DNA of 64,000 nt from an uncultured Pseudohongiella sp. (lineage in GTDB: Bacteria > Pseudomonadota > Gammaproteobacteria > Pseudomonadales > Pseudohongiellaceae). The notes beneath the pieces were generated by a model, which saw nothing but the letters and a program-made list of their open reading frames with translations, had not been told where the DNA came from and made no database searches. Every line of letters starts with the position of its first letter. The first letter of the stretch is position 1. Positions 38,025-54,768 of the stretch are shown here, one piece after another. A program made the position numbers and the translations under genes. Location of the stretch: NCBI GenBank assembly GCA_902597095.1, contig CACJWK010000010.1, positions 1 through 64,000 of the forward strand. The letters run 5' to 3'.

Positions 38025-38774
38025 CTAAACAATTTCCATAATAATTAACAAACTACTTGTCGCGGTAAGGACCCAAAGCAACGTGCCGTGGAGAACTACC
38101 GAACCTCGAAAGTTGAGAACATTGGTTCGAGTGATCTCCGAACCAATTGAGTATAGTGCTATTACTAACAAAGTTTGACTTAACCAACTGGACGAAGATA
38201 TCAGAAAATTCGGAATACTCACCTCCGTTCCAAGAGTTGCGGCAAATAAAAACAGAACGACAAACCATGGCACACCAGGCCGAGAATGCTGCCGGCTCTC
38301 AACCAAACCAGCAAGAATCAGCAAGGGGAATAGCCACAGAGTTCGAAACAACTTCAGTATGGTAGCGATCTGTGCGGAGTCGTCACCGAAGCGTGCTGCA
38401 GTCGCAATCACCGAAGAGGTGTCATGAATGACTACCGCGCACCAAACCCCAAACTGCTCCTGCGACATTTCCAACCACCCACCGATCAACGGAAAGATGA
38501 TCAACGCAATCGCGTTCAGGCAAAACACAAGAGTCAATACGACACCGGTTTGCTCCGGTCGAGCTCCAATCGTAGGCGACAGGCTGGCGACCGCAGTTCC
38601 ACCACAAATCGCCGTCCCTGAACTCACTAAGAGATTGATTTTGCGATCATCGTGAATCAGACCTCCTGATACGAAGCCAATTACGAGCGTCATAATCACG
38701 CAGGCCGAGACCAGAGCACTGTGCGCAATACTCGTTTCAATCAGCTGCCTGGCATCCAGAGTAAGCCCTATCAA
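38025..38774 (-). CDS. YeiH-family transporter (putative sulfate exporter), 5' end unclear
   Basis: YeiH/UPF0324 proteins are inner-membrane transporters of about 330-350 residues. The product from TTG 38774 is 249 residues. It carries typical segments such as GTAICGGTAVASLSPTIGAR and WCAVVIHDTSSVIATAARFG. The same frame stays open upstream to 38984 without an ATG or GTG and encodes plausible YeiH N-terminal sequence (LLIYLGNPAVSLLVGATISF). So the real N-terminus has lost, or never had, a normal start. It may be a decayed gene or use a rare start. It lies beyond the distal att copy. Confidence 0.7.
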   Translation of the reverse strand: MIGLTLDARQLIETSIAHSALVSACVIMTLVIGFVSGGLIHDDRKINLLVSSGTAICGGTAVASLSPTIGARPEQTGVVLTLVFCLNAIALIIFPLIGGWLEMSQEQFGVWCAVVIHDTSSVIATAARFGDDSAQIATILKLFRTLWLFPLLILAGLVESRQHSRPGVPWFVVLFLFAATLGTEVSIPNFLISSSSWLSQTLLVIALYSIGSEITRTNVLNFRGSVVLHGTLLWVLTATSSLLIIMEIV

Positions 38775-39075
38775 GACAACAGCTATTTGCAGCGCGCGCT
38801 GACCGAACAGATGCGCCGCAGGTGACCCTTGGCGATTAAGAAGAAAAGAAATCGTTGCACCAACCAGCAGCGAAACGGCGGGGTTACCCAGATAAATCAG
38901 AAGTGGGACCGGGACGGCCAGAAACCAAAAACCCGAAGGGACAGGAGAGCCTACCTTCCTCTTAAATAAGTTAAAAATACCGCACTACCTTCATTCAGCT
39001 ATGGATACCCCTCTTAATCCCGGACATAGTGATTTGATTGCATTTTATTCATGTCGCGCATTGCCTCAGAATCAC

Positions 39076-39543
39076 TTACTTGATTTTTAATTTCATTTCA
39101 AAAGGGTAGTCAGCAGAAGCTTCATGCTCCTTTTTCATTCTTATCATATTCTCAAAGATTTCTTCTAATATCTCTGCGGATTTTCTGATATTCAAATCGA
39201 CGTGTATTTCAACGGTTTCAATCAGAGCAGCCACTTCATCTGATTCTTTACAAATTGCACAGACAGAGTGATAGAGCTTTTTATTCACATTAAGCATTCT
39301 GAATCTTGGCATCAGTTTTTCACCTTCCAAACATTCCTTCAGATATCGGATGTTCTGTTCGGCCGTAAATGAAGAAAAACCCCTAGCAATGTAATCCTCC
39401 CCAAAACCAAGACTGTGATAGAAATTATTATCATGGTCCATGGGAATGGTTTGATAGTGTCTGACATTCATATGGCCATTCATATCGCACATGTCGTGAG
39501 ACACAATCACAGGGGCACCTTCGATTGGAAATATTTTTTTCAT
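39076..39543 (-). CDS. Hotdog-fold thioesterase
   Basis: The start at 39543 (MKKIFPIEGAPVIVSH) gives about 155 residues. The acyl-CoA thioesterase signature DMCDMNGHMNVRHYQTIPMD is clear, with NIRYLKECLEGEKLMPRFRM following. In the family, an aspartate near the N-terminus and the hotdog helix form the active site. An upstream ATG at 39591 is possible but adds an unconserved segment. The neighbours are a YeiH transporter and a methyltransferase; the substrate is unknown. Confidence 0.75.
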   Translation of the reverse strand: MKKIFPIEGAPVIVSHDMCDMNGHMNVRHYQTIPMDHDNNFYHSLGFGEDYIARGFSSFTAEQNIRYLKECLEGEKLMPRFRMLNVNKKLYHSVCAICKESDEVAALIETVEIHVDLNIRKSAEILEEIFENMIRMKKEHEASADYPFEMKLKIK

Positions 39544-39744
39544 AGTCTTATTCTTTTGGTCGCCAGGATTATTTACAACCCCCGCGAGCAATGTTTAGTG
39601 AAGCTCTTTCGCTACTGTGTTTTAACGGAGGCAATCAAAGTGAATTTTTACCGCACTGCGCACAAATTACTCTTGATTCGCCGGTTTTCTTCAATATCAA
39701 TCACATTGCGCATCCACCCGCATATTGTCTGACGAAAAGCTAAA

Positions 39745-40659
39745 TCATTTCTGGGATTTCGCGATCACGAAGTGCTCGAGTTGTAATAATTGATTTTCAG
39801 CGAGAGCTCTTCCAACAGGAGCAAAGTACCGAGAGTTGAGATCTTTCAAAGTTACGTTTTCGTCTATTGTATAACCGTTCTGCGACAGAGCACTTTCAAA
39901 TTCATAAGCACTGTAGAATGATACCCAAGGCTCACCTGCTTTCTCTGACCCATATGTTATTAACTTGGCTCTTTTTTCAGCGTTTGGATACCCTCTCCCA
40001 AAGCAAGCTACCGGATTTTTTTTGAAAAGCTCACTGACATAAGACACAAATAAGATGGCATTGGCGTTTTGAGAAAGCGTGGCCACTTCTTTGATCGTTG
40101 AATTTAAAGCCTCTTTAGTAATGTACTGCGAGACGCCCTCAAGGGTAAAGACGGTTGATCTGCTTTTATCAAAACCCGCATCCAGAAGTCGTTGAGAGAG
40201 CGACTGATCAGTGAAGTCAACCGGAACATAAGTGATATTTTCTGAGTTAGAGGCTTCTGCGGGAAGTTTTGACCGCTTTCTGGCCTGAACTTCAGATTGG
40301 TCCACTTCAAAAATTCTTAGCCAAGATGGAAGTTCTAGCCGATGAGCCCGGCAGTCATATCCCGCTCCCAGAATGACATATTGCCCATACTCACTCGCCG
40401 TACTTTCTTGAACCAGATCATCAAGGTAGCGCGTGCGCGAGATCAGATGTTCATGAAAGCCGGGCACAAGCTTTTGACCCAACCAGACATTAAATTTATG
40501 TCCCATAAATTGAATGAAGCTTGCACCTAATACGAACCTTTGTGCATAAGGGTCGTTTATGATGCGTTCCTCTGGGGTGGCTAACGTTTCAATCAAACGT
40601 TGCTTGGCTACTCCCTGGGCTGTACCGTCTTTTCTAAAGATTGACTCACTGACCGCCAC
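39745..40659 (-). CDS. S-adenosylmethionine methyltransferase (LCM/TIGR00027-like)
   Basis: This is a class I methyltransferase of the leucine-carboxyl-methyltransferase-like family, about 304 residues. It has DPYAQRFVLGA near the N-terminus, the SAM-binding segment YVILGAGYDCRAHRL, and VDFTDQSLSQRLLDAG followed by TVFTLEGVSQYITKEAL. The GTG at 40659 is preferred because GGGAA lies a few bases upstream; another GTG at 40671 falls inside the guaA-type att copy. The substrate cannot be told from the sequence. Confidence 0.75.
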   Translation of the reverse strand: MAVSESIFRKDGTAQGVAKQRLIETLATPEERIINDPYAQRFVLGASFIQFMGHKFNVWLGQKLVPGFHEHLISRTRYLDDLVQESTASEYGQYVILGAGYDCRAHRLELPSWLRIFEVDQSEVQARKRSKLPAEASNSENITYVPVDFTDQSLSQRLLDAGFDKSRSTVFTLEGVSQYITKEALNSTIKEVATLSQNANAILFVSYVSELFKKNPVACFGRGYPNAEKRAKLITYGSEKAGEPWVSFYSAYEFESALSQNGYTIDENVTLKDLNSRYFAPVGRALAENQLLQLEHFVIAKSQK

Positions 40660-40661
40660 TT

Positions 40662-40683
40662 TTATTCCCACTCGATAATGACG
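40662..40683. repeat. Distal guaA 3'-end copy (att-type site)
   Basis: Plus-strand TTATTCCCACTCGATAATG, read on the minus strand, encodes the guaA C-terminus (Ile-Glu-Trp-Glu-stop). It matches the real guaA end at 51592 in most positions. Such short copies of a gene's 3' end are left by integration of islands at that gene. This is the outer end of the accessory block. Confidence 0.75.
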
Positions 40684-40877
40684 TGGATTTAATTCTGTTT
40701 AGTATCAATGTCTTAAATGACATCAATAGTGCTTGTGCAACTAATGTGTAAAACGCCCCTGTATTGCACGCTTTTATTACGTTTATATTCATATTGTATT
40801 TCAATAGCTTATACAACCGTTGGCTGCACACTGTGCATTGCTAACCTTGCTTAATCGTCTCCTAAGTAAACCCCATT

Positions 40878-42746
40878 TCAAAACTCTAATATGTATAAAC
40901 CACCACTGATGTATTGATTTTTATCTTTACGGAGAGCTTGGGTTTCAAAATGGCGTAATTCGAAGCCAAATTTTTTACATAAACCTTCGATGTACTTTTT
41001 TGAATGCGAATACCGCCCCGATTGTTCAAGAAAAAAACCGTCGCCGTCATAATCTTCTGTCGAAAAAACTAACTTTCCGCCTGTTTTGTTGCGGGACTTT
41101 ATTAATTTAAAAATATCAGCTAAATCTCCGATATAAATGAAGACGTCAGTTGAAACAAAGTAATCAAAATTCAAACTTGCATTTGATAGATAGGCAAGAA
41201 TATCTTCTTTGATTAATTTATTGTAGATGCCTTTTTTTATTGCTTCGTCGAGCATTTTTTCTGATAAATCGATACCCTCAAGATGCTTACAAAATTGTTT
41301 AATTTCCGCCCCAAACAAACCAGTGCCACATCCTAAATCCATTATTGAGCCCAATAAATCGAGTTTACTATCTTTTAGAATTATTTCTGCGATGACTCTT
41401 GGAATTTTATATTCAAGGTTATCAACCAGAGAACTTTCAAACTTAGCAGCATAGTTATCAAAAAGATTCTCAACATAATCTCGAGGTGCAGTTTCAGTTG
41501 TTTCTCCAGTTAAGGCCGCAAGCATATGTTTAGCCGACGAATATTCAGGCTTCAACGCTATCGCTTGTGTATAGCTATCTTCAGCGTCATCAAATCTGCC
41601 CAAGTCTTTGAGCGTGTTACCCAAGTTGTAGTGGGCTTCAGGATAGTCAGGCTTCGATGCTATAGATTGGTTGAAGCTTGCTAGAGCCTCATCCAGTCTT
41701 CCTAGTTCTTTGAGCACATTACCCAAGTTGTAATAAGCCTCGGCTAAGTTAGGCTTTAACGCTATCGCTTGGTTAAAGCTTGTTAGAGCCTCATCCAATC
41801 TTCCTAGTTCTTTGAGCACGTTACCCAAGTTGTAATAAGCTTCGGCTAAGTTAGGCTTTAACGCTATCGCTTGTGTATAGCTTGCTTCAGCCTCATCTAA
41901 TCTGTCTAATTTTTTTAACGTGTTACCTAAGTTGCTGTGGGCTTGGGCATAGTCAGGTTTCAACGCTATCGCTCGGTTAAAGCTTGCCAGAGCTTCTTCT
42001 AATCTGCCTAGTTCGTAGAGCGTGATGCCCAGATTGCTGTGGGCTTGGGCGTAGTCTGGCTTCAACGCTATCGCTTGCGTGTAGCTAGCTAGAGCCTCGT
42101 CTAATCTGCCCAAGCCTTTGAGTGTGTTACCCAAGTTGCTGCGGGCAGCAGCGTCTTTAGGAGATAATGCAACTGCTGTTTGATTAGCATCTACGGCTTC
42201 AGACCTTCTCCCTGTTTGCCCTAATACTGCGCCTAAAATTTTCCAGGCAAATTGATGCCTAGGAAACTCCTGAGTGATGTGCACAGCGAGCTTTTCTGCA
42301 TCATTAAGTCGCCCGTTCTGATAGTGCTCTAAAAGGCTACTGAGTTGTTCTTTAGATGGGTTTGCACTATTGACATTTTCGGTTTGAATTTTCGGAGCTA
42401 GTTGTGCCTCGAAATTACTTAATTTTTCTCCATCCAATCCCTGATTCTTTGCCTGCTCATAGACTTGCTTGGCATTTTCAAACTGTTGTTCCCTTATGAG
42501 GGCATCAATGTAGCTTAGCCAAAACTGTTCTATCTCTGGGTTGGCTTCAAGAGCAGTTTTAAATAAAGGCAATGCCGCGTCAGCTTTATTAACGGAGACT
42601 GCTAATACGCCCAAGTTATGGTTAGCGTCTGGATGCAAAGGCTGGGACCGCAAGATTGCCCGATATAAACGCTCGGCATCTTGAAGCTTACCTTCTTTGT
42701 GTGCAGCAACACCCTGCTGCAGTGCTTGTTCAATCGTTAGTTCCAT
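40878..42746 (-). CDS. TPR-repeat protein fused to a SAM methyltransferase
   Basis: Residues 1 to about 410 are tetratricopeptide repeats of 34 residues, several nearly identical at DNA level (for example YYNLGNVLKELGRLDEAL, twice). From about residue 430 a class I methyltransferase follows, with SAM motif IMDLGCGTGLFGAEIK and VSTDVFIYIGDL. TPR-methyltransferases of this type are common near surface-polysaccharide and flagellin-glycosylation loci; here the target is unknown. The gene lies alone in the first island, about 200 bases from the distal att. The near-identical repeats point to recent internal duplication. Confidence 0.85.
   Translation of the reverse strand: MELTIEQALQQGVAAHKEGKLQDAERLYRAILRSQPLHPDANHNLGVLAVSVNKADAALPLFKTALEANPEIEQFWLSYIDALIREQQFENAKQVYEQAKNQGLDGEKLSNFEAQLAPKIQTENVNSANPSKEQLSSLLEHYQNGRLNDAEKLAVHITQEFPRHQFAWKILGAVLGQTGRRSEAVDANQTAVALSPKDAAARSNLGNTLKGLGRLDEALASYTQAIALKPDYAQAHSNLGITLYELGRLEEALASFNRAIALKPDYAQAHSNLGNTLKKLDRLDEAEASYTQAIALKPNLAEAYYNLGNVLKELGRLDEALTSFNQAIALKPNLAEAYYNLGNVLKELGRLDEALASFNQSIASKPDYPEAHYNLGNTLKDLGRFDDAEDSYTQAIALKPEYSSAKHMLAALTGETTETAPRDYVENLFDNYAAKFESSLVDNLEYKIPRVIAEIILKDSKLDLLGSIMDLGCGTGLFGAEIKQFCKHLEGIDLSEKMLDEAIKKGIYNKLIKEDILAYLSNASLNFDYFVSTDVFIYIGDLADIFKLIKSRNKTGGKLVFSTEDYDGDGFFLEQSGRYSHSKKYIEGLCKKFGFELRHFETQALRKDKNQYISGGLYILEF
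41560..42130 (-). repeat. Near-identical 102-base repeats inside the TPR region
   Basis: The TPR-coding part contains units of about 102 bases (34 codons) that differ at only a few positions. The clearest adjacent pair lies around 41690-41895. They share the segments for LGRLDEALTSFNQAIALKP and AEAYYNLGNVLKE. The number of repeats may vary between strains. Confidence 0.7.
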
Positions 42747-43315
42747 TAACTACTCTTAATCTCTGCCTCTAATCATGCACGAAACACGTGTTTTAACTCA
42801 TTATTGCGTGCTCATAGCATCTGTTATTTTCTTATAAGCATAGTATTAATTTTTGTGGGATTCGAACAGCACGGTTTTTTCGACGTCTTAAAATAAATAC
42901 GCTCTTTCAGCATGAGCCCACCAAAGAGCATCTATTCCCGGGCTCACTATACCAGTCACCGATAACGTTAAACAGAATTATGGACAGCTGAAAACCGTGC
43001 ATTAATCATTAATTCTTAAACGCTTGTTAGCTTATTTGTTGATTGGGTAACGGCTTTTGAGCCATGGTGGGTTTGATAGCAGCTCGAGCTGCGTCGTTCG
43101 CAGCGGGTTTACAAGCTTGCTGAACAGTTTTTTTGATGACTTTGCTTTTGGGTATTGAAATTGTACGAGTGACTTTTTTGTGCCTGGTTTTGCCATCTTC
43201 TTTGCTAATGCTACAACGCTGGCACTTGACGCAAGCATCAACTAAAGTGCTGCCCATTTTGTGTCAGCATCCATAGCATCAATTTGATTGCGAATGATGT
43301 TGAGAGTTTTTTGAG
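42747..43315. other. Non-coding or decayed stretch of the first island
   Basis: These 569 bases are AT-rich and hold no solid gene. Two overlapping minus-strand frames (43027-43257 and 43032-43241) compete, which argues against both. The longer one encodes a basic, cysteine-containing peptide (ACVKCQRCSISKEDGKTRHK) of unknown nature. Material near 43260-43315 probably continues the decayed integrase. Confidence 0.4.
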
Positions 43316-43643
43316 TGCGTGGCAATTGTTGCCAAACATCCACTTACAATATGCCCTAGTTCTACATCACGTTTGCGAAAGTCTAAGTATTGTTGCCGCC
43401 CTCTTTTGTTGTACTTGAAAAGTAGGTTTTACCTTGCTGGAGATTTGCGTAAATTTCTAAGTAAATAGCTTTTCCACGTTCGACTGCTGTTATTTCACTG
43501 CGAGTACGTGGGCTTTTGCGTGCGTATTTGTTTTCTTTGGCAAGCCACATACGAAACTGCCAATACCCTCCCCGCCCGTATGCACAAGCTTCATCAAAGA
43601 TTGGAATTTCGTCGTCTTTGAATTCTTGCTTTTTGAGTACCAA
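43316..43643 (-). pseudogene. Decayed integrase, first island (N-terminal part only)
   Basis: The frame 43383-43643 encodes the DNA-binding arm of a tyrosine integrase: YWQFRMWLAKENKYARKSPR, then AVERGKAIYLEIYANLQQGK. After a stop, a shifted frame continues into the core-binding domain (DVELGHIVSGCLATIATH). This corresponds to the same region of the second, larger integrase pseudogene (GTIAKGRLTTITTHIK). The catalytic domain is gone. It starts about 160 bases from the internal att copy, as the other integrase does relative to guaA. Confidence 0.7.
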
Positions 43644-43982
43644 ATTCTGCCTACGAGTTACTATTATTGTCAGTAGTCACACGCTTGTGAGGCATTCTGA
43701 GTGACTGTAAGAGAGAATTTCAGTTAAATCAAACGATTAAATTTTATGTGAAAGTTTCGTGTAACCAACTATTGTAATAAAATCAATAACTTAGTTATTA
43801 TCGTCTATTCCCAATCGATAATGGTACGTCTGTAAATTATTGTTTTTACTGACATTTTAAACCTGTTCACAGTTAGTTTGAAGTTGCGTAAGCGCCTGAA
43901 TTTGCTAACTTTTTCGCTAATCACAGGAGATCAATTACCTAGGTTTCATGTTACTACGAAGTTTGTAGAGCTTCCCTCTCAT
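43644..43982. other. Junction region between the two islands
   Basis: These 339 bases are AT-rich and hold no gene. They contain the internal att-type copy at 43805-43824. Integrase sequences lie on both sides: the decayed one at 43643 and the compact recombinase at 43983. Confidence 0.5.
43805..43824. repeat. Internal guaA 3'-end copy (att-type site)
   Basis: Plus-strand CTATTCCCAATCGATAATGG, read on the minus strand, encodes Thr-Ile-Ile-Asp-Trp-Glu-stop, a variant of the guaA C-terminus. It separates the two tandem islands. Compared with the distal copy it differs at two of the first 19 bases (CTA for TTA, AAT for ACT). Confidence 0.7.
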
Positions 43983-44597
43983 TCACACAGAAACCAGATT
44001 CACAGCATTTCGTAACTTGTCGACGCTGACATCGCCGTATTGCTGCGTGACTGCTAATGACGAGTGTCGTGCCAGTTCCTGACTGACTCTCGTGCTGACT
44101 CCTTTTTCCGAAAGATTCGTGATGAAAGCGCGTCTTCCTGAGTGAGACGAACAAGTGTCTAATCCGATCTTCTTGTACAAACCCTTCAAAACCATTTGTA
44201 CTGTGTGATTTACCATTTTTCCACCCTTCTGAGATCTCAGCAGCGTCGATTTCCGAGACAGTAAGAGTTCCCTATGTGCAGCTTTTATGTACTTAGCAAT
44301 TTCTTTTCGTACAGAGTCGCTGAGATAGAGAGAATGCGATTTCGAACCCTTTGTCTGATGGGCTGCAAAAATTACTGTCTCTCTGACGTTATTTTCACTG
44401 TGTAAAACATCTCCTACAGTGATTGCTGCAATTTCACACGCTCGCAAACCCACTCTATACGACAAAACCACCATCATTCTGTTTCTGTCAGCGTCTCGTG
44501 TCATCTTTGTTGCGTTTAAGAGACTCTTGTACTGTGACACTTTCAAAACTGGTGCTTTCTTCACCTTGATGCTCTTGATGTTCGACTCTGATTCCAA
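43983..44597 (-). CDS. Compact tyrosine recombinase (catalytic domain only)
   Basis: This 204-residue recombinase consists of the catalytic domain alone, like FimB/FimE-type invertases. All catalytic residues are present: R52 (SYRVGLRACEI), K83, H152 and R155 (SSHSGRRAF), H178 (ELARHSSLA) and nucleophile Y187 (VTQQYGDV). The start is TTG at 44597, with an in-frame stop just two codons upstream. No core-binding domain precedes it. It could act on guaA-type att sites, on a local invertible element, or serve as the mobility gene of the second island. Repeated ATTCCT motifs lie upstream. Confidence 0.85.
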   Translation of the reverse strand: MESESNIKSIKVKKAPVLKVSQYKSLLNATKMTRDADRNRMMVVLSYRVGLRACEIAAITVGDVLHSENNVRETVIFAAHQTKGSKSHSLYLSDSVRKEIAKYIKAAHRELLLSRKSTLLRSQKGGKMVNHTVQMVLKGLYKKIGLDTCSSHSGRRAFITNLSEKGVSTRVSQELARHSSLAVTQQYGDVSVDKLRNAVNLVSV

Positions 44598-44960
44598 TCG
44601 CTACCCGTGAAACCAGTAATAGTTCCTTGAGCTGCGATTCCGTAAGCAGGTATTTGTCGTTTTTCACTAAAAAATCCAATGTTCCTATAGTGATTATAAA
44701 GCATCCTTCCATTTAAAATTCCCTGCATTTTCAATAAAATCAGCACCTTATATAAGTCTCCGTTTTCCTTGAGAATTCCTTGTCAAGTGCTAGGAATGTA
44801 ATAAATTCCTAGAAAGGTGACATTTGTGATGATGAGTAAAAACTAGATTTGCTGATTTTACTCAATTCCTGAGAGAACCTGTGAAAGATCGTTGAAGAGA
44901 TTGATGTTTGGGTAAGTCTGAGCCCTTGAAATACGTCAAACTGTCGGAGAAGCTCTCTAA
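44598..44960. promoter_or_regulatory. Divergent control region with palindrome and ATTCCT repeats
   Basis: This 363-base stretch lies between the recombinase and a divergent secreted-protein gene. It holds a perfect 8-base inverted repeat CTAGGAAT with a 7-base spacer and ATTCCTAG (44790-44812). Further ATTCCT copies lie nearby (around 44775 and 44866). These could be a repressor operator or a recombinase core site. Two minus-strand frames here have no recognised domain. Confidence 0.4.
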
Positions 44961-45383
44961 TTGACATTTTTGAAGAGATTCACAATTATTGCAGTGATCC
45001 TTATTGCCCCCACCTGTTTTGGACAGGTCGGTGGTAGGAGAATTTTCTGTTCGAATCCTGATCGCACCTATGCAAACGGATGGTTCTTTTTGCCGGGAGA
45101 AGTGATCGGTTTCGGCGTTGTTAGGGACAATGATGAGTTCGTAATCTTTGAGGATGATGGCGTTGCATATTGGACTGACTCAGCCACAGTAAAGTGGACT
45201 GACAAGATTTCAAAGTGGTCGCTAAACAGAAGAACTCTCCTCCTCTCGCACTTCATTAATTGGGGGTCAGTGAACTACCAGCAACAATGCGAACTTTATC
45301 CCGACCAATCAACTCTAGAGATTAGAGTTGGAAAATATCAGAAAGCGCTTCAGGCGGAATATGATAAAAACAGAGAAAGGTAA
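44961..45383 (+). CDS. Small secreted protein, unknown
   Basis: This 140-residue protein has a signal peptide (MTFLKRFTIIAVILIAPTCF, cleavage after FGQ). Its mature part is rich in Trp, Tyr and charged residues (WFFLPGEVIGFGVVRDNDEF, NRRTLLLSHFINWG). The start is TTG with GGAGAAG upstream. I do not recognise it. It is followed by another secreted protein after six bases, so the two form a small operon. Confidence 0.65.
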   Translation: MTFLKRFTIIAVILIAPTCFGQVGGRRIFCSNPDRTYANGWFFLPGEVIGFGVVRDNDEFVIFEDDGVAYWTDSATVKWTDKISKWSLNRRTLLLSHFINWGSVNYQQQCELYPDQSTLEIRVGKYQKALQAEYDKNRER

Positions 45384-45389
45384 TTTACT

Positions 45390-45782
45390 TTGAAAAAACT
45401 CCTAACACTGTCTCTGCTGCTATCGACGACAACGTTCTCGTCACTGTCTTTTGGAGAGTGGGTTAAATCTGCAGAATCTGAAGATGGATCGTTTTACATC
45501 AATCTTAGTGATATTAGGGAAGTCGACGGGTATGTTTATTGGTGGCAGCTGAATGACTTAATAGAACCAAATAAGGGAATTCTTTCCGCTACCACATACC
45601 ACCAAACTGACTGCTTGTGGTTTCGAACCAAATATTTACGTGGAAAGTCGTATAAAGCCAAAATGGCAGAGGGAACTGCAGAACGTAAGTATGATTACGA
45701 TGATCCAAAGTGGATTTATCCAGCAGGACATTTACAGGGGCAGATCATGCAAGATGTTTGCGATTATGTTATGAGCAAGTAA
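45390..45782 (+). CDS. Secreted surface-adhesin E-like protein
   Basis: This 130-residue exported protein (signal peptide MKKLLTLSLLLSTTTFSSLS) has a mature part with the pattern of the surface-adhesin E-like family: WVKSAESEDGSFYINLSDIR, then a YVYWWQLND stretch, a cysteine in QTDCLWFRTKYLRGKSYKAK and a C-terminal cysteine (MQDVCDYVMSK). The start is TTG with AAAGG nine bases upstream. Members are small periplasmic or surface proteins of unclear role. Confidence 0.7.
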   Translation: MKKLLTLSLLLSTTTFSSLSFGEWVKSAESEDGSFYINLSDIREVDGYVYWWQLNDLIEPNKGILSATTYHQTDCLWFRTKYLRGKSYKAKMAEGTAERKYDYDDPKWIYPAGHLQGQIMQDVCDYVMSK

Positions 45783-46263
45783 CCCAGGCATTGTCTTAGT
45801 CTTCGCAATCCTGACGTTATGAACAAGAAACTCCAGATATGATCTCTGCAGCTATCCACGACAACGTTTTCATCTCTAGCCTTTTGCTCACGAACCCTGC
45901 CATTGATCGTGTCAAATCTAATCCATAGGCTTTCGGTTTGGATAAATTGAGAAGTCGCCACCTGACAGCACTACCTTCGCTAACCACCAAATAAACGAAA
46001 AAAAATCAAACTGAAATAACATCTCTACAATCTCGAAAGTAGAACCTTCATCAATAAGTGATAGCAGCCAAAAAATCGGAGCTTAATAGACGCAAAGGAC
46101 AGCCATCCAGTGCGCCTTATTTGCCATTCGTTGAATAAATTCACTCATAGTTTTTCGAGATTAATAAATATCAGACAGGTGCTGATTAAGTATTGAACAG
46201 TGCTAGTGAAAAAGCTTCTTCACCGTGACTAGCTATGCATACTGAGGTTAGTCACAAAATATT
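45783..46263. other. Stretch downstream of the adhesin-like gene
   Basis: The 481 bases hold no intact gene. At 45819-45888 there is a broken second copy of the beginning of the adhesin E-like gene (listed separately). The rest is AT-rich with no RNA gene or clear terminator seen. Confidence 0.4.
45819..45888 (+). pseudogene. Fragment of a second adhesin E-like gene (signal peptide only)
   Basis: About 70 bases match the start of the preceding gene by eye: ATGAACAAGAAACTCC, then a stop codon, then codons for SLQLSTTTFSSLAF, compared with SLLLSTTTFSSLSF in the intact gene. The similarity stops after the signal peptide. It looks like the remnant of a tandem paralogue. Confidence 0.55.
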
Positions 46264-46779
46264 TTAGGATTTTACCCAAAAAGCGTGCTTTTTCTCGAAA
46301 TCCGATGAACTCGTCAAATTACCATCCAACTTTTCCGTCATCTGCTTAACAAAATCTCGACCAAGAAGTAAGGTATTGTGTTCATCCCACCATTTCCGCC
46401 GACCTTGGGTCTGATATAACTCAAGGTAATAGTTCTCTTTTGTACTGTATATCTCTTCGCTTATAGCTTCTTGTCGATGCAACCGATAAAGAAGTTCCCA
46501 ATAACCAGATTCTTTGATGCACCATACTGCATACAATGACTGATCCTCTTCGTTTAATGAATCCCAGTCGCCGTTTCCACGCTTTATGACATCCCATAAA
46601 TTTTCATTTGCAAATATGTCCTCGAGCATTGACCTCTCGTACTCAGCAATAGCAACCAGAGCGCTTCCCTCTAGCTGCTTACTGTTATTTTCTATCTGCC
46701 TAGATAGATATAAGAGAGTCAAGATAACTCCAAGAGCTCCTAATAATTCCGCTATCGCACCAACTGCATCCCAAGTCAT
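46264..46779 (-). CDS. Small membrane-anchored protein, family member 1
   Basis: This 171-residue protein begins with one hydrophobic segment (AVGAIAELLGALGVILTLLY) followed by LSRQIENNSKQLEG. The rest is a helical, soluble domain (WCIKESGYWELLYRLHRQEA). The layout of a single N-terminal helix, a short QI/QM-x-x-N motif and a helical domain is shared with three more genes in this island. An AGGAGG ribosome site precedes the ATG. The family is known to me only as hypothetical proteins in marine gammaproteobacteria. Confidence 0.7.
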   Translation of the reverse strand: MTWDAVGAIAELLGALGVILTLLYLSRQIENNSKQLEGSALVAIAEYERSMLEDIFANENLWDVIKRGNGDWDSLNEEDQSLYAVWCIKESGYWELLYRLHRQEAISEEIYSTKENYYLELYQTQGRRKWWDEHNTLLLGRDFVKQMTEKLDGNLTSSSDFEKKHAFWVKS

Positions 46780-47118
46780 TTTTACCTCCTAGTTTCGGTA
46801 TTTACTTACTCAGTTCAAATTTTTGATTGGCAGAAGACGGTTGTGTCCCCTTAAAATACCCGACTAGCGAACTCATTTTTTTGAAGACAGTTACCTACTA
46901 CCCATCTTTCCCGTTCTTTCCATCGCTTGATCTGCGGCTATAGTTCTAACTTCTTACTCTCATATCGATCTCTATAATGCAGTAATTTAGATCTCCTTCT
47001 AAATTGCACGCTAACTGCGAATAACTCTCATTTGTCTTTTGATCAATTAACGACAAGAAGTTGGCAGAACTCTGAGTTCACTGTAGAACCACATCAGTGT
47101 TGAATATCGTTATGACTC
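46780..47118. other. Intergenic stretch in second island
   Basis: These 339 AT-rich bases lie between the first DUF-type gene and a small plus-strand frame. I see no gene, RNA or clear repeat in them. Confidence 0.4.
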
Positions 47119-47304
47119 GTGTACTCAACTTTTAATTGGTTTTTGATGATGGAAAATTTCTTCGATAATTTAGTACTAGTAGTAAGTCTAAGCGCAACTG
47201 TGACATCTCTTGTTATCTACCTCTCGTGGATTTCTGGTGTCACGGAAGGCATTAAAGTGTCGGAAAACTCGGACCCTAATGAAGGTATAGACGATACTTT
47301 ATAA
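47119..47304 (+). CDS. Possible small membrane peptide
   Basis: The frame encodes about 60 residues with one hydrophobic helix (LVLVVSLSATVTSLVIYLSW) and an acidic tail. The start may be GTG 47119 or ATG 47146/47149; none has a good ribosome site. A minus-strand frame (47217-47555, 112 residues, basic then acidic) overlaps it, and only one of the two can be real. Confidence 0.25.
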   Translation: MYSTFNWFLMMENFFDNLVLVVSLSATVTSLVIYLSWISGVTEGIKVSENSDPNEGIDDTL

Positions 47305-47609
47305 ACTCGGGTGTCAGTTATGGGTAAAGATCGGGAAGCGTTTGCTGGAGTTTCGTCTCCCTGATCTTGCCCATTGTCTTCTGAATCAGCAGTTTCTATC
47401 TCAAGGGTTGGTTTTGTCTCCGCAAGTCCTATATGTCCTAAAGAAGCTCTCCTTCTCGCCGTCGATCTTCTGCTACAAACTCTTTGAACCCTAGCATGTC
47501 TTATTTTCCTTCCGAAAAAGTTTTTAATATTTAGTTTTTTATCATTTATAAGCATAGTTACTACCTATGCCTAGATATACCCTTCATTATTCCAATTAAA
47601 CTCTATGGT

Positions 47610-48110
47610 TCAATTGTCAGCATTCTGCGGAGTAATGATTCCTTCAACAAAGTCAACAAAGTCATTCTCAAGTGCAGGCTTAGCGAATGGACTGTTGTTC
47701 CACACGAGTTTAACGCCAGGATTGTTGTAGAATAGTTGCACAACGCCCTTCAGCTCTTCGATGTCCTTTTTAGTCACCGTAGATGCATGCTGCCCCCAAT
47801 GTAACCAAAACCATGCAAGCATGGTCCAGTGCATGATGAAAGCTTCATCTTTAGAAATACCAAGCTCTTGAGAAAACATGTCATGTAAATGACTTGTTCC
47901 AAGACCTTTTTCCAATGCTTGCCTAATTTCGGTGTTTGCAATGCTTGCAAGCATTATTTCCCTTACGCCGTTGGAGCGATGGAGCCGATTGGTGTCAGCT
48001 GCTGCCTCTCTAGCCGCTCGAACCTGTATTCCAAAATATCCGAGAGTAAGTACAACTGCTAATGCACCAGTTATCTCTCCAACCGCACTAATCGCCTCCC
48101 AGTTCATCAT
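47610..48110 (-). CDS. Small membrane-anchored protein, family member 2
   Basis: This 166-residue protein has the same plan as the gene at 46264: an N-terminal hydrophobic segment (ISAVGEITGALAVVLTLGYF), GIQVRAAREAA, then a helical domain with MLAWFWLHWGQHAST. A GGGAGA ribosome site lies upstream of the ATG at 48110. Function unknown. Confidence 0.7.
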   Translation of the reverse strand: MMNWEAISAVGEITGALAVVLTLGYFGIQVRAAREAAADTNRLHRSNGVREIMLASIANTEIRQALEKGLGTSHLHDMFSQELGISKDEAFIMHWTMLAWFWLHWGQHASTVTKKDIEELKGVVQLFYNNPGVKLVWNNSPFAKPALENDFVDFVEGIITPQNADN

Positions 48111-48205
48111 TCATCTCCCAAAAAGTAATTAATTACTTGTCGTATCGGCTCAGCTAGAAAATATTAAAAGTGTGCAATGCAGGTGGAACTCGCACATTTT
48201 CTCGA

Positions 48206-48478
48206 CTAATTTGTCCCCACGACTACAACTGTGATTTCTTCTCCAAGCGGGATTTTTGACTCAACCATTCTTTGTAAACTCCTCAGCTCCTGTCGTTTAT
48301 TTTGATGAGTATCATTCTTCTGTAGCATGACAGCAGTAACCTTATTTTGCTGTACAGGTTTCAATATCCGTTCAGTTTCTTGCTTGTTGATAGTTATTTT
48401 CTGATGCAGCTTAAATCTTGTTTTTATCCATCGTTGGTTCGTGTTGTTCACTTCGTGAACCGCGTTGCTTCGCACCAT
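48206..48478 (-). CDS. Small basic protein, unknown
   Basis: This 90-residue, highly charged frame (FKLHQKITINKQETERILKP) ends with EEITVVVVGTN. No ribosome site of note and no recognised domain; it is included as a possible gene because the frame is open and sits in a same-strand series. Confidence 0.35.
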   Translation of the reverse strand: MVRSNAVHEVNNTNQRWIKTRFKLHQKITINKQETERILKPVQQNKVTAVMLQKNDTHQNKRQELRSLQRMVESKIPLGEEITVVVVGTN

Positions 48479-48794
48479 TATTACTATTTATTAACTCCTG
48501 CATGGAATTAGCATCAATCCTAGAATCTCCTTTATGCAGATTCTGTCGAGGCAACTCACCTGTAAAGATGAGTCACAACATCCTCATCTTTATGCGAGCT
48601 CCATTGATGCTGAATCAGGAGACTAATAAAAATATTAGTAAGTAGTTAGCGTTCTCTTTTATCTCCTCTCATGTGGTCTTTTAATCCCACCCAACGGACA
48701 ACTTGTTCCCCGACTCAATTTGTATAGGTTCGTTGACGGTTGCGAGTTCTACCATTGCGAGTATTGTCTTCTTAACTTAATCACCCCACAAAAT
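48479..48794. other. Intergenic stretch with a perfect hairpin
   Basis: These 316 bases hold a perfect 10-base inverted repeat (TAAAGATGAG / CTCATCTTTA, 48563-48592, 10-base loop). There is no long T-tract, so it may be a weak terminator or a protein-binding site. No gene is supported. Confidence 0.4.
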
Positions 48795-48983
48795 CTAATC
48801 GGGCTCATCTGAGTCTAGTTGCATATATTCTTCCGCAGTTGTGAACTTCAAATCCTTATCGGTAGACTCTTCATCTCTTTTCTTACAGGCTTCTCTTTCC
48901 TGTTGTTCCCGTGCTTTCTTCAAATGTGGTGGCAGCTCTCTATTCGCGCACCCAGTTTTGTGCATTTCCTTTTCTTTGCTCAT
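48795..48983 (-). CDS. Small charged protein, unknown
   Basis: About 62 residues, very rich in charged residues (REQQEREACKKRDEESTDKD) and without a recognised fold. The ATG at 48983 follows a GTG and a purine-rich stretch. It lies downstream of, and in the same direction as, the third membrane-anchored protein gene. Confidence 0.4.
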   Translation of the reverse strand: MSKEKEMHKTGCANRELPPHLKKAREQQEREACKKRDEESTDKDLKFTTAEEYMQLDSDEPD

Positions 48984-48998
48984 CACCCTTACTATCCT

Positions 48999-49469
48999 CT
49001 AAGAAATCTCGTCAATTATTTCATTCAAATAAATTTGAAAGTCTGGAGCGAACGAATCTTGAACGCGTGTCCAGATTCCATTTACGTTTGCATAACTGAT
49101 CTGCCGTTTCCATGTGTTTGTTCTTGCTTCAAATTCATCCGAATCAAAAAGCCCTATTTGATACTGATAAAATTCGTTCTCCCACATCCGAAGTTGCGAA
49201 AGTGAGTATAGTGAATACTGATAATCTTCTGCTGTACCTGCTTCATATGCATCGCCATTTGCTCTAAATGCGGTTGCAACTCGAGCAAAATCTATACTGT
49301 CTATCACTCTTTCATAATATGACAATTGATTTTCCACAATCGAGTTCCTTGTTTGTGATTGCATCATAGCTGTGTTTTGCTGCATCTCTAAACCCAGAAA
49401 TACGATTGAACCAATCACACCGATATTTGCTATGAGTGAAACAACTTCATTAATTGCTGACATCTTCAT
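48999..49469 (-). CDS. Small membrane-anchored protein, family member 3
   Basis: The 156 residues begin with MKMSAINEVVSLIANIGVIG, a hydrophobic helix, and a FLGLEMQQNTAMMQSQTRNS segment, followed by a helical domain (WENEFYQYQIGLFDSDEFEA). It is a close paralogue of the gene at 49571. An AAGGAGG ribosome site precedes it. Upstream bases (about 49471-49540) resemble the end of the integrase pseudogene, as at 50050-50110. Confidence 0.75.
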   Translation of the reverse strand: MKMSAINEVVSLIANIGVIGSIVFLGLEMQQNTAMMQSQTRNSIVENQLSYYERVIDSIDFARVATAFRANGDAYEAGTAEDYQYSLYSLSQLRMWENEFYQYQIGLFDSDEFEARTNTWKRQISYANVNGIWTRVQDSFAPDFQIYLNEIIDEIS

Positions 49470-50110
49470 AAATCCTCCTTTGATTTCTGTGTTTCTATCT
49501 TATTGAAGTGCTGCCGTACCTTTTTTTCTTACTTCTATCTCCAAAATTGAGCGCAATATAAATTTTGAACTTAAATCTCGATTTCCTCTGCATATAAGCG
49601 GTCAATATAATCTACAAAGTCTTTCGCAAACTGATCCCTACGAGTTGCCCAGACTTTGTATATCGAACCAATTATAATGTTCGCTCTCCAAGTTTTTTCC
49701 CTTGCTTCAAACTCACTAGCCTCAAACAGACCTGTCTGATACTGATAAAATTCATTCTCCCAAATCCGTAATTGTGAAATTGCAAAAAGGCGGAACTGAA
49801 AAAACTCTACCGTATTTTCTGGATATGCATCTGCATTCTCTCTTAATTCGAATGCAATCTTTGCGAAATCGTTGTTGTCAATCGCCCTCTCAAGCAGCGA
49901 GAGTTGATTTTCAACGATAGAATTCCGAGTCTGCGATTGCATCATCTCAGTGTTTTGTTGCATTTCTAAACCCAAAAATACGATTGAACCAATCACACCG
50001 ATATTTGCAATAATTGAAATCGTTTCATTGATCTCAGAAATCTTCATGAGCCCTCCTTTGATTTCTGCATTTCTATCTCATTGAAGTGCTGCTGTAGTCT
50101 TTTGCTTACC
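49470..50110 (-). repeat. Tandem duplication: family gene plus integrase tail
   Basis: Bases just upstream of member 3 (about 49471-49540) and of member 4 (about 50048-50110) are similar: both contain CCTCCTTTGATTTCTG and a following ATTGAAGTGCTGC. In the second place this is the 3' end of the integrase frame. So the duplicated unit carried the integrase tail with the gene; the copied unit spans roughly the two genes and these leaders. Confidence 0.65.
49571..50047 (-). CDS. Small membrane-anchored protein, family member 4
   Basis: The 158 residues are a close paralogue of the gene at 48999, with near-identical starts (IANIGVIGSIVFLGLEMQQN) and a shared SQTRNSIVENQLS and WENEFYQYQ. A strong GGAGGG ribosome site precedes it. 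It lies directly downstream of the decayed integrase. The pair came from tandem duplication of gene plus upstream DNA. Confidence 0.75.
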   Translation of the reverse strand: MKISEINETISIIANIGVIGSIVFLGLEMQQNTEMMQSQTRNSIVENQLSLLERAIDNNDFAKIAFELRENADAYPENTVEFFQFRLFAISQLRIWENEFYQYQTGLFEASEFEAREKTWRANIIIGSIYKVWATRRDQFAKDFVDYIDRLYAEEIEI

Positions 50111-51337
50111 TCTTCTATTGTCTTTTAATGCTGTTTCTATCAGCGTCTCTTCATCTAAGTGATAGTGAGTCTTTTTTAATTGTTGAATTGATGTGCCACA
50201 TGGATTTGCGATGTCTCTTAACTTCACACCCCCTTTCCATCGCTGCGTGACGTAGAAGTGTCTGAGACTGTAATACGTGATGTTTCTGTTGGAAGTATCT
50301 ATGTGACAAAATTTAAGAATATCCTCCCAAAATGCTTTCTTCTTCCTTCCTGGCAATCGCGTACCGTGGTAGTCAGCAAATACCAAGTCCTCAAGATCAC
50401 GATAAAGACTGATCTCTTCTGTTCGTCTGAAGCAATTAGAGTCTCGACAGAATTATCTTCTGTCTTTTCTCACCTTTAATGTTTCTGCTCTCACTTGTAA
50501 ATAGACAATCTCTCTCGTTTTTACGTAATCGTCTGTTTTCCTGTAGTCGATAATATCTCGCCACTGAAGTTGCTCAAGTTCCCCTTTTCTCATTCCCGTA
50601 TTAGCGAGTGCAAGTCTGTAATTTCTTAATATTTGTTTCTCGTAATACTCTTTCTCGCTTACTCAGTTCTTCTTTGCACAAAACGATCTCGTTCCCTTGT
50701 AGAGTCTCTCTCACTCTTCTTCGGTGAAAGTGTCTATTCTGACATTTGTCTGAAGTTTTACCCTGTCAAACTTACTGATCTCAATCCTGTCTGCTGAAAC
50801 GTCAGTAAATCCTTCTCGATGACAATATTTGATGAACACTCATATCGTTGAATATTCTTGTCTAATCGTGTCTTCGTTGACTGTTGAGTTCCCTTCTCTT
50901 CTCCAGTTGTAGTAACCGAGAAAGGTTCTTTTGTGAATATCAGACACTTTCATGTCACCATGTAAAAAAGACAGCATATGCTTAATGTGAGTCGTGATCG
51001 TAGTTAGTCTTCCCTTGGCGATTGTGCCTGACTTCACATCAGCGTTTTTCTAGTCAAGAAATCTCTTAGCAACCGTCCTTACATCATCTGAGAATATCTA
51101 TTCACCCTGATTCACTCGTGCAGTGGTGCTTATGTACTCTTCTTTTCCCTTCTCAGGAGCAGTTTCAAGATGGTTAGTTCGTAGACTTTTCCTGAACATC
51201 ATTCCTTCATCTTTAACCCAAACATGTAACTGATAAACCCCGCCACTTTTATTTGAAGTGAAAATTTTACAATCACCACCAAAAAGTTCATGCACATTTG
51301 CCATCCAGTTGTTCGGTTTTTCTGTCATATCACTCAC
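50078..51337 (-). pseudogene. Tyrosine integrase with six in-frame stops and no frameshift
   Basis: The 420-codon frame, read from 51337 to 50078, encodes a site-specific integrase: arm (FRKSLRTNHLETAPEKGKEE), core-binding (IAKGRLTTITTHIKHMLSFL), Arg-I box TGMRKGEL, and C-terminal HxxR-type region YYSLRHFYVTQRWKGG with a late KTHYHL tyrosine. It has internal stops at 51098 (TAG), 51050 (TAG), 50840, 50711, 50663 (TGA) and 50453 (TAA), all in the same frame. No frameshift is needed to reach the end. The protein sequence is otherwise well kept. It lies about 255 bases from the guaA 3' end, as expected for the integrase of a guaA-targeted island. Confidence 0.85.
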
Positions 51338-51439
51338 TCGTAAAATCTTATTAGATCAATCTTGAGATCCAACAGTAGTCACACATGCCGAGTTCGCATA
51401 TGTGTTTGCTCTGAGTTTTCTTAAATTCCATCCAAAAAA

Positions 51440-51467
51440 AACACCGATGTCGCGAAACATCAGTGTT
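51440..51467. terminator. Bidirectional terminator next to guaA
   Basis: An imperfect 11-base stem (AACACCGATGT / ACATCAGTGTT, one mismatch) with a CGCGAA loop is preceded by a run of A and followed by a run of T. It therefore looks like a terminator on both strands, ending guaA transcription and shielding the island. Confidence 0.7.
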
Positions 51468-51591
51468 TTCCGATTCAACTACAAACCGATGCTGTTTTTA
51501 TGATTTTCAGTAAATACAAAACCTTTATAGTGAGTTTGTAGTAAATTTATAGAAAAATAATAAATTAAATCAACAATTTAAAATAGTATGC

Positions 51592-51615
51592 TTACTCCCA
51601 CTCAATAGTGGCAGG
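51592..51615. repeat. guaA 3'-end att copy (island right end)
   Basis: Plus-strand TTACTCCCACTCAATAGTGG is the end of guaA itself (minus strand: Ile-Glu-Trp-Glu-stop). Together with the copies at 40662 and 43805 it defines the island boundaries. Confidence 0.75.
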
Positions 51616-53172
51616 TGGCTTGCTGGAGATATCATAGGCAACGCGCGATACCTCGGGAATTTCATTCATGATCCGGTTCGAAACGTGTTCCAACAGTTCC
51701 GGGTCGAGCCGGGCCCAGCGGGCCGTCATGAAGTCGATGGTTTCTACTGCTCGCAGGCTGACCAAATAGGCATAGCGACGGGCATCGCCAACCACCCCGA
51801 CCGATTTCACCGGAAGAAATACCGCGAAGGCCTGACTTACCTCGTGATATTTCCCGGCGCGATGCAGCTCCTCAATGAAAATCGCATCCGTCCGTCGCAG
51901 AATATCGCAGTACTCCTTGCGTACTTCACCCAGCACTCTAACGCCGAGACCGGGCCCCGGAAACGGGTGTCGATAAACTATATCGTAAGGCAGACCCAGT
52001 TCCAGACCGATTTGTCGGACCTCGTCTTTGAAAAGCTCGCGAAGTGGCTCTACCAGATCCATGGCCATGTCTTCCGGCAAACCACCAACGTTGTGGTGAG
52101 ATTTGATGACATGAGCCTTACCGGTCTTTGAACCGGCGGACTCAATCACGTCAGGATAAATCGTTCCCTGCGCCAGCCATTTCACTTCCCCCAGTTTCGT
52201 AGCCTCTTCATCAAACACCTCGATGAAGGTATTTCCGATAATCTTGCGCTTGGTTTCAGGATCCTCGACACCGACAAGCTTGCCAAGGAACATCTCCTCA
52301 GCATCTGCGCGGATCACCCGGATGCCCATATTCTCGGCAAAGGTCGCCATCACCTGATCGCCTTCATTGAGGCGCAGCAGGCCGTTATCGACAAACACAC
52401 AGGTCAACTGATCGCCAATAGCCCGTTGCAGCAACGCGGCCACCACTGAAGAATCCACTCCCCCGGACAGCCCCAAGAGCACCTGGTCCTTGCCGACTCT
52501 CTCCTGCACCGTCGCAATGGCATCCTCAATGATGCTAGCAGCGGTCCACACTTTCTCGCAGCCGCAAATGTCGAGGGCAAACCTCTCAATGATGCGCATC
52601 CCCTGCAGCGTATGCGTGACTTCCGGATGAAACTGGAGTCCGAAAAACGGCTTCTCGCGATGGCGCATGGCAGCAATGGGCGCGCTGTCGGTTGCCGCTA
52701 CAATCTCAAAATCAAGAGGCACCGCGGTTACTTTATCTCCATGGCTCATCCAGACATCCAACTGAGAGACTCCATTGTCCAGGCGACGATCTTCAATATC
52801 GTCCAGCAGAGCACTGCTAGAGACGATATTAACCTGCGCAAAGCCAAATTCGGATTTATCGGAGGCCTCAACCCTGCCGCCAAATTCCTCGGCCATGGTC
52901 TGCATGCCGTAACAGATGCCAAGTATCGGCAAGCCGGCCTCATAGAGAAACGCTGGCGGCCTCGGAGACACTTCGGTATTCGCAGATTCAGGACCGCCGG
53001 AAAAAACAATCCCCTGAGGCGCGAAGGCGGCGAAGTCGTCCACTGAGACATCGTAGTCCCAGATTTCACAGTACACACCTGCTTCACGAATTCTGCGGGC
53101 GATAAGCTGCGTATATTGCGACCCGAAGTCGAGAATCAGAATCTTTTGGCTGTGAATGTTGGTGCTAGCCAT
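51592..53172 (-). CDS. guaA: GuaA, GMP synthase (glutamine-hydrolysing)
   Basis: GuaA converts XMP to GMP with ATP and glutamine in de novo purine synthesis. Starting at ATG 53172 the protein has 526 residues, matching the usual 525. The N-terminal glutamine amidotransferase has the nucleophile motif [10 protein letters not shown] and the [10 protein letters not shown] histidine. The ATP-pyrophosphatase domain has the P-loop [17 protein letters not shown], and the C-terminal dimerisation domain ends with TIEWE. A longer frame to 53235 is rejected. Many genomic islands use this 3' end as integration site. Confidence 0.97.
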
Positions 53173-53298
53173 CAGTAAGAGAGAGCCCCCGGCGTGAATT
53201 GGAAAATTTGGTGTGTTGTCTCCGGCTGACCGCATTCCCCCGTCGGTACGGGCCTGACTGTTACGCCATCACTGGCTGAAAGCTTCGGACCCTGAAGT

Positions 53299-54768
53299 TT
53301 AGGATACCCGGTAGTTCGGCGCTTCTTTGGTAATAGACACATCGTGCACGTGGGACTCTGACATGCCGGCACCGGTGATCTTTACAAACTGAGTCTTCGT
53401 TCGCATTTGCTCGATGTCCGCACAACCGGTGTAGCCCATGCTCGACCGAAGCCCTCCCATCAACTGATGCACAATGGCTGCCATCGGGCCTTTGTAGGGA
53501 ACCCTTCCCTCAATCCCTTCCGGCACCAGTTTTTCGAGGCCGGCCTTGCCATCCTGGAAGTAGCGATCGCTTGACCCTTGAGAGTGTGACATGGCGCCAA
53601 GACTTCCCATTCCGCGATAGGACTTGTAGCTGCGCCCCTGATAAAGCTCCACCTCGCCGGGAGCCTCCTCGGAACCGGCCAGCAGGCTGCCTACCATCAC
53701 GACATTGGCGCCGGCAGCAATCACTTTGGCGATATCGCCTGAGTAACGAATACCACCGTCTGAAATCACACAGACATCGGTGTCCTTAAGGGCATCCACC
53801 ACATTGGCCACAGCGGAAATCTGCGGAACACCAACGCCGGTGACAATACGAGTCGTGCAGATCGAACCGGGTCCGATGCCGACCTTGACCGCATCGGCTC
53901 CCGCCGCAGCCAGGTCCCGGGCAGCCTGCGCGGTTCCGATATTGCCACCGACTACTGATACCTCACCATAGCGCTTCTTGATACTCGCCACCTTGTCAAT
54001 CACACCCTGATGGTGGCCATGGGCCGTATCCACGATAATCACATCGACGCCCGCCTTAACCAGCGCCGCCACTCTGTCATCAGTGTCCGCAGAGGTGCCG
54101 ACAGCTGCGGCCGATCTCAGCCGGCCCTGTTCATCTTTGCAGGCATTGGGAAAGTCTTCTGATTTGAGGATGTCTTTTAGGGTAATGAGTCCCTTGAGCT
54201 CAAAGGCATCATTCACCACGAGGATTTTTTCGATCCGGTGTCGGTGGAGCAGCGCTTTCACCTCAGCAAGGTAAAAGTCTTCCTTTACGGTAACCAGACG
54301 GTCTTTCGGCGTCATGATCGTGTCTATTGCCGCATCCAGATTCGACTCGAAGCGCACGTCTCGACTGGTGACGATCCCCGCCAGCCCTGAACCATTCATG
54401 ACTGGCATGCCGGAGATGTTGTTTTCCTTCATCACCGCCACCAGATCTCGCACGCTCGCCTGCGCGGAAATCGTGATCGGGTCCTTTACAACCCCGCTTT
54501 CATATTTCTTCACCGCACGCACTTCACGCGCCTGCTGCTCGATGGTCATGCTCTTATGAATAACGCCCAGACCGCCTTCCTGCGCCATGGCAATAGCCAG
54601 ACGCGCTTCCGTTACCGTATCCATAGCTGCGGAAATCAGCGGGATATTCAGCGAGATTGCTTCAGTGATTCGGGACTGCAGATTGACGGTGCGAGGAAGC
54701 ACGGTGGAGTGCGCGGGCAGGAGCAGGACATCATCGAATGTTAAAGCTTCTTCAGCAACCTGTAACAT
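53299..54768 (-). CDS. guaB: GuaB, IMP dehydrogenase
   Basis: GuaB oxidises IMP to XMP with NAD+, the first committed step to guanine nucleotides. The 489 residues are the usual length. A CBS pair lies around residues 90-200 ([20 protein letters not shown]). The catalytic loop is [20 protein letters not shown] with the active-site cysteine, and the flap contains [12 protein letters not shown]. It is followed by guaA, 127 bases downstream when the guaA start at 53172 is used, in the usual guaB-guaA order. Confidence 0.97.

Follow-up and report, generated by a model that had tools for sequence, protein, structure and literature searches.

Stacked elements and cassette-like arrays behind the 3′ end of guaA in an uncultured Pseudohongiella and its relatives

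Introduction

Why does the end of guaA recur twice in the DNA that follows the gene? The question is raised by a stretch of 64,000 nucleotides from an uncultured Pseudohongiella sp. (assembly GCA_902597095.1, contig CACJWK010000010.1, positions 1 to 64,000 of the forward strand), hereafter the window, in which the last codons of guaA are present at 51592, 43805, and 40662. The genome (2.4 Mb in 75 contigs, 77% complete) carries this array within one contig of 64.8 kb. A preliminary description, made from the sequence alone, had attributed the copies to two tandem islands integrated site-specifically at guaA. Our analysis makes it very probable that the last codons of guaA are an attachment core, that two elements and, probably, an LCM methyltransferase cassette are stacked behind the gene, and that arrays of such segments occur genus-wide.

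Results

The guaA gene (51592 to 53235, minus strand) is an intact open reading frame (ORF) of 547 residues with matches to Pfam GATase, GMP_synt_C, and other families. Three cores lie on the same strand: copy 1 (51592 to 51611), the living guaA 3′ end and proximal attachment site; copy 2 (43805 to 43824), where an element A ends and an element B starts; and copy 3 (40662 to 40681), the far end of element B. They differ from one 20-mer by 1, 2, or 3 mismatches, a result obtained in 0 of 100 shuffles. A pattern search of the whole genome returned exactly three core matches (control, 0), and a wider pattern returned the same three only. A profile built from relatives only (45 of 52 sites, 5 doubtful sites and the 2 window sites being excluded) recovered the copies at E values of 1.7e-4, 0.37 (weak), and 1.2e-5, respectively; the next match had an E value of 20, so that beyond these three this search revealed no decayed core in the window. 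As in GIsul2-like elements, GAGTGGGA is the core at the guaA 3′ end and recurs at the far end; the copy at 43805 carries GATTGGGA, which differs from GAGTGGGA by 1 base. The three copies are thus real, and the reading Ile-(Glu/Asp)-Trp-Glu-stop proposed for them is correct in each case. They are best read as attachment sites, those at 43805 and 40662 being displaced copies.

In the direction of guaA transcription, the gene order is core 51592, a broken integrase gene (integrase 1), cargo genes, a second recombinase gene (recombinase 2), core 43805, an integrase 1-type fragment, a TPR-methyltransferase gene, core 40662, and the LCM methyltransferase gene, followed by a thioesterase-like gene, a Cons_hypoth698 gene, and the region that the preliminary description calls flagellar. 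Element A (43805 to 51591; 7.8 kb) and element B (40662 to 43804; 3.1 kb) both have cores at their two ends, with G+C contents of 0.398 and 0.406, compared to 0.561 for the flank on the guaA side and 0.457 on the flagellar side. Immediately behind the guaA stop codon (51516 to 51591, minus strand), inspection by eye revealed a AAATTGTTGATTT motif and repeated ACTACAAA/ACTATAAA. Similar motifs, AAATTGTTGATTTAATT and TAAGTTATTGATTTTATTA, lie past the stops of 51592 and 43805, and G047, G022, and G038 have the motif at a like place behind their guaA genes, as does G008 less exactly (all read by eye; genomes and loci are cited by G and L numbers). Core 40662 has no such motif at that place, and a gene follows it directly. 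Therefore, 51592 and 43805 look like element starts, and 43805 and 40662 look like element ends. The 203 bp preceding core 43805 are 89% identical to a stretch of G002 that likewise ends at a core.

Integrase 1 (50081 to 51355, minus strand) is interrupted by six in-frame stops with no frameshift seen, and its pieces are 84 to 96% identical to a homologue located behind guaA in G022. The stops comprise 2 TAG, 3 TGA, and 1 TAA codons; without a frameshift, the decay is by substitution only. Element B contains the N-terminal fragment of a second integrase of this family (43386 to 43676, minus strand), which matches the integrase that follows guaA in L095 with 55% identity along 82 residues. The fragment (43676-43386) and the start of integrase 1 (51355-51101) share 19 of 48 residues (40%; E = 7e-10), and both match N-terminal parts of the integrases of relatives. 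Open homologues of 425, 443, and 435 residues are found behind guaA in G038, G042, and L095, respectively. Thus, as in GIsul2-like elements, an integrase gene adjoins guaA, and the integrase 1 family is represented past both proximal cores, yet in broken form. The preliminary description was right in placing remnants of one integrase family beside two of the copies, at similar distance and orientation.

Recombinase 2 (43983 to 44597, minus strand), absent from that description, is an intact ORF for a tyrosine recombinase of about 200 residues (PF00589; E = 4.9e-24), shorter than integrase 1 and of a different type. Members of its family have about 192 to 204 residues, and in their alignment the window copy retains the arginine, histidine-arginine, histidine, and tyrosine positions, which we take to be catalytic. 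The distance from its end to the core is 158 bp in the window, 163 bp in G002, and 195 bp in G102. The gene is not a general marker of element ends, since it is placed elsewhere in L095 and G042. Nor is it the second integrase remnant, as it belongs to the different, short type; the remnant is the 43676-43386 fragment.

Comparison with close relatives places the boundary of the inserted DNA at the core. G099 has the same flagellar-side neighbors as the window and is 94% identical to it up to position +14 of the guaA core. The two sequences match again, at 78% identity, starting 34 bp beyond core 40662, and the DNA in between measures 1.3 kb in G099 and 10.9 kb in the window. The G099 insert includes a 1.04-kb segment comprising one FMN_bind_2 gene with a core at each end. 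Two other pairs (G038/G098, 97% identical; G015/G046, 95%) are likewise similar up to core +14 or +15 and then continue into different DNA. We looked in relatives for the same flanks without direct repeats, which would have spoken against integration, and did not see them; G099 also has a core copy. Site-specific integration at the guaA 3′ end, producing two tandem elements, is therefore supported, with close relatives diverging exactly at the core. The proposal of two islands stands as far as the tandem elements are concerned and was too narrow in two respects: across the genus this site is a hotspot where small segments form arrays, and the gene for the LCM methyltransferase is probably a cassette too.

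We searched 84 genomes of the genus for the core pattern, most of the genomes compared being incomplete metagenome-assembled genomes (MAGs); a reversed control pattern matched once in all. At least one match was present in 61 of the 84 genomes, at least two in 16, at least three in 5, and eight in G092 (table counts made by eye); a second match does not always denote an array, as in a few genomes the two were on different contigs. Among 91 core sites with at most 1 mismatch in the loci examined, 34 were guaA ends by reading frame and 57 were not, the latter including 52 that were distinct when 60 nt upstream were considered. Neighboring cores delimited 31 nonredundant segments of 345 to 3143 bp. 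After removal of near-duplicates and of segments outside 300 to 3500 bp, the longest ORF of at least 60 residues was on the guaA strand in 27 of 30 segments (p = 8e-6), one of the 31 having no ORF of 60 residues. This ORF covered at least 60% of the segment in 17 of 31 and opened inside the core in 9 of 31; in cores ending in TGA, the ATG overlaps the stop codon. The products include GNAT proteins, an amine oxidase, RidA, alpha/beta hydrolases, methyltransferases, a PF00144-family protein, FMN_bind_2, DsbA, and an HTH protein, and 3 of 14 cassette ORFs scanned had no Pfam match. The guaA end in this genus is a docking hotspot that collects integrase-bearing elements and small integrase-less segments, often of one gene each.

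Segments were also found to be shared between genomes. G027 and G100 have in common one segment of 1406 bp, with 100% identity along 1430 bp that begin at core -6 and end at +18 of the next core; this segment immediately follows guaA in G100 and occupies a different array position in G027. In the 5350-bp stretch that includes guaB and part of guaA, these two species are 82% identical. G045 and G098 share another segment at 93% identity, again from core to core, over 1417 bp. More generally, in 20 array loci, the ends of shared blocks fell at a core in both loci in 13 of 54 cases and in at least one locus in 21 of 54, whereas random placement gave an expectation of 1.4 for the query side alone (maximum, 7 in 5000) and 2.9 for either side (maximum, 13). 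Only loci with at least two cores were used in this test, together with blocks of at least 80% identity and 150 bp that did not run through guaA; without these restrictions, 35 of 97 ends were at cores, many of them merely the guaA end.

The DNA on the far side of core 40662 was examined in the same way. The LCM methyltransferase gene (39745 to 40671, minus strand) starts inside core copy 3 and has no recognizable far core. Its homologue in G027 also starts at a core (82% identity over 952 bp, the alignment beginning at core -1 in both), and in G099 the homologue is preceded by a core-like, apparently decayed remnant. The G027 homologue thus suggests that the LCM gene is probably an older, third cassette. 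The thioesterase-like gene (4HBT_2; 39076 to 39591, minus strand) has no recognizable core in the window and stands behind a core in G092, G015, and G027. Because both genes stand at or behind cores in relatives, 40662 is not the edge of an untouched chromosome, and the assumption of plain chromosomal DNA to its left was not borne out. In many relatives, tadA, mltF, and purL are downstream of guaA (e.g., L056-L058, L061, L062, L067, L068, L070, and L073), and the tadA and purL genes of the window genome are on another contig (L236, G000:C6:1-8000), indicating that the far flank was rearranged in the lineages of the window and of G099. The position of tadA and purL on that contig places the breakpoint at or near the array.

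Element A carries small ORFs without a Pfam match (46264 to 50047, minus strand), several of them with a hydrophobic start. The ORF at 46264-46779 is 98% identical to one downstream of guaA in G047, and those at 49571-50047 and 48999-49469 look alike by eye. A single weak PADLOC match (E = 0.007) was obtained for these small ORFs. The opposite strand (44961 to 45782, plus strand) encodes one ORF without a match and one Adhesin_E family protein. The cargo of element B is the TPR-methyltransferase gene (40878 to 42746, minus strand; 622 residues), homologues of which lie directly behind guaA in G044 and in the G071-type locus L071 (G041). No relaxase or conjugation gene was present among the Pfam matches of 20 window ORFs, which cover part of the island ORFs, so that nothing there marks an integrative conjugative or mobilizable element. 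No tRNA gene was found in the window, an Rfam scan of 37000-54000 gave no match, and PADLOC applied to 9 proteins returned nothing beyond weak or generic TPR and methyltransferase matches.

Discussion

Very probably, the last codons of guaA (ATTGAGTGGGARTRR) are the attachment core of tyrosine-recombinase elements, which would explain the arrangement described above. Integration then restores the guaA end and leaves the displaced copy beyond the insert; since each insert regenerates the core, further inserts stack behind guaA. On this reading, the window holds one element from 51592 to 43805 and another from 43805 to 40662, both with decayed integrase 1 genes, and probably the older LCM cassette. 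The recombinases found here may perform these reactions, acting in trans on the small segments, and the orientation and start position of the cassette genes suggest that they are expressed by read-through of the guaA transcript. We regard as evenly balanced the further proposal that guaA is the fixed head of an integron-like platform, in which mostly single-gene, integrase-less cassettes would be moved in trans by guaA-specific tyrosine recombinases and expressed by guaBA read-through, some restarting translation at a core ATGA, where the start codon overlaps the guaA-type stop.

Several observations weigh against the attachment-core explanation. For most block ends (41 of 54), at least one of the two loci has no core at that point, and some loci are near-identical, so that the ends cannot be counted as independent; decay and other forms of recombination therefore also act. 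No excised circle was seen, nor was the window's own site encountered without an insert; tadA, the usual neighbor, is on another contig. In 20 genomes searched, the listed PF00589 matches of G015, G046, G092, and G098 were on contigs other than those of the arrays; with no recombinase listed near these four arrays, a trans-acting enzyme is inferred and was not found.

One recombinase of 400 to 416 residues (PF00589) adjoins an ORF of 715 to 759 residues, presumably a processing protease, in all six genomes fetched, including that of the window (L237-L242: G015, G046, G000, G100, G099, and G098). As a fixed chromosomal enzyme, it is a candidate for acting in trans on cassettes. At another locus (L095:11745-20997), three tyrosine recombinase genes lie within 4.3 kb past guaA; behind them are what we take to be type I restriction genes.

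The most serious rival, which we nevertheless consider rather unlikely, is that integrative islands simply accumulated in tandem at a known hotspot and that the small segments are immobile deletion remnants of larger islands. The decayed integrase 1 genes of both window elements speak for it, as do one window segment and several in relatives that retain only fragments of larger genes and the larger inserts found between cores in other families of the order. It does not readily account for the identical or near-identical core-to-core segments present in different genomes and array positions (G027/G100, G045/G098), and random deletion would rarely leave a single ORF covering at least 60% of a segment (17 of 31) or opening inside the core (9 of 31). 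A spread of the segments by homologous recombination, through guaA-end repeats and flanking DNA and with no site-specific recombinase, is still less probable. Some second copies do extend beyond the core, with 78 bp of guaA preceding it in G100 and more of the guaA end retained at the second cores of G389, G424, and G259, but 57 of 91 sites have no preceding guaA coding sequence, pieces of the integrase 1 family lie behind both proximal cores, and the common core of about 15 bp is short for such recombination. Wrong joining of metagenome contigs at a short repeat can be given hardly any weight: MAGs account for most of the arrays, and a core lies near the end of several contigs, but a single 83-kb contig, G092:C10, extends from guaA (there broken into several ORFs) across the array as far as tadA and purL, contig G015:C2 is 122 kb long, the window array is in one contig whose far flank is found independently in G099, and a 15-bp repeat is below the usual assembly word length.

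In integrons, genes of the same orientation, with a recombination site at each end, are stacked behind a fixed head. The guaA arrays are alike in outline, with guaA as the head. An attC-like hairpin was rejected as a general feature, since folding against shuffles gave z < -1 in 21 of 52 sites compared to 19 of 145 controls, that is, in a subset only; inverted repeats precede many cores. The recombinase 2 homologue ranks XerC-like and XerA entries above IntI4, and neither an integron integrase nor attI was identified, no dedicated integron search having been made. As far as tested, the guaA platform resembles an integron but is not one.

The closest parallel is GIsul2. According to PMC9376610, its integrase recombines experimentally at att sites sharing GAGTGGGA in guaA, and one island contains three att sites, as in the window. 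The CR2-sul2 unit lies between two of these, has no integrase of its own, and is movable by the island's integrase, as proposed here for the small segments. In the passages of PMC9376610 considered here, no arrays of up to eight cores with many small segments, such as the relatives carry, are described. A tblastn search with the G042 integrase 1 gave no match at an E value of 1e-5 in 72,556 plasmid records, although PMC9376610 reports GIsul2 on plasmids. The second parallel is the tRNA-Lys island of Methylopumilus, where additive flexible genomic islands are preceded by repeats of the tRNA end, as described in PMC10872708. In both cases, one target has received insertions repeatedly, its last bases recur as direct repeats, and size and content vary. 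They differ in that the target here is the protein-coding guaA, the repeat encoding its last residues and stop codon, and in that single segments can be traced from core to core between species. Tycheposons, named in PMC10872708, are another group of marine elements that combine cargo genes with a tyrosine recombinase and a single target site, but they are described there as tRNA-bordered and 4 to 200 kb long. The literature search, which left most subscription journals outside its coverage, returned no paper on guaA cassettes in this clade. Islands targeted to guaA and additive islands are thus already known, and the present case combines both ideas in a new setting.

The cores are not confined to the genus. 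At least three core matches, and up to five, were present in 15 of 390 genomes drawn from the order (counted by eye). In ten loci fetched from other genera, the cores are again in tandem, some with longer guaA ends, and one of them (G371) has the start of a G042-type integrase behind guaA (by eye). In L192 and L195, also from other genera, the gene between the guaA core and the next core appears to be sul2, as expected for the CR2-sul2 unit. Integrase 1 had no relative among viral contigs; recombinase 2 had 12 distant ones (25 to 38% identity). An exact core was present in 26 stretches of these contigs, of which 7 had a guaA match and 2 had cassette-end-like upstream sequence. The viral-collection contigs L217 and L222 (108 and 203 kb) have a guaA-type core with about 60 nt of common upstream sequence (cassette-end score, E = 4e-8) and diverge soon behind the core; they may represent a phage carrier of the site.

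These results point to a cassette-like system in uncultured bacteria of the ocean, with a housekeeping gene at its head. The repeated Ile-Glu-Trp-Glu-stop ends behind guaA provide a short signature for spotting recent gene gains, and the segment identical in two species makes gene exchange at guaA directly testable. The published work on GIsul2 shows that resistance islands elsewhere dock at this same site, so that rules learned here would carry over.

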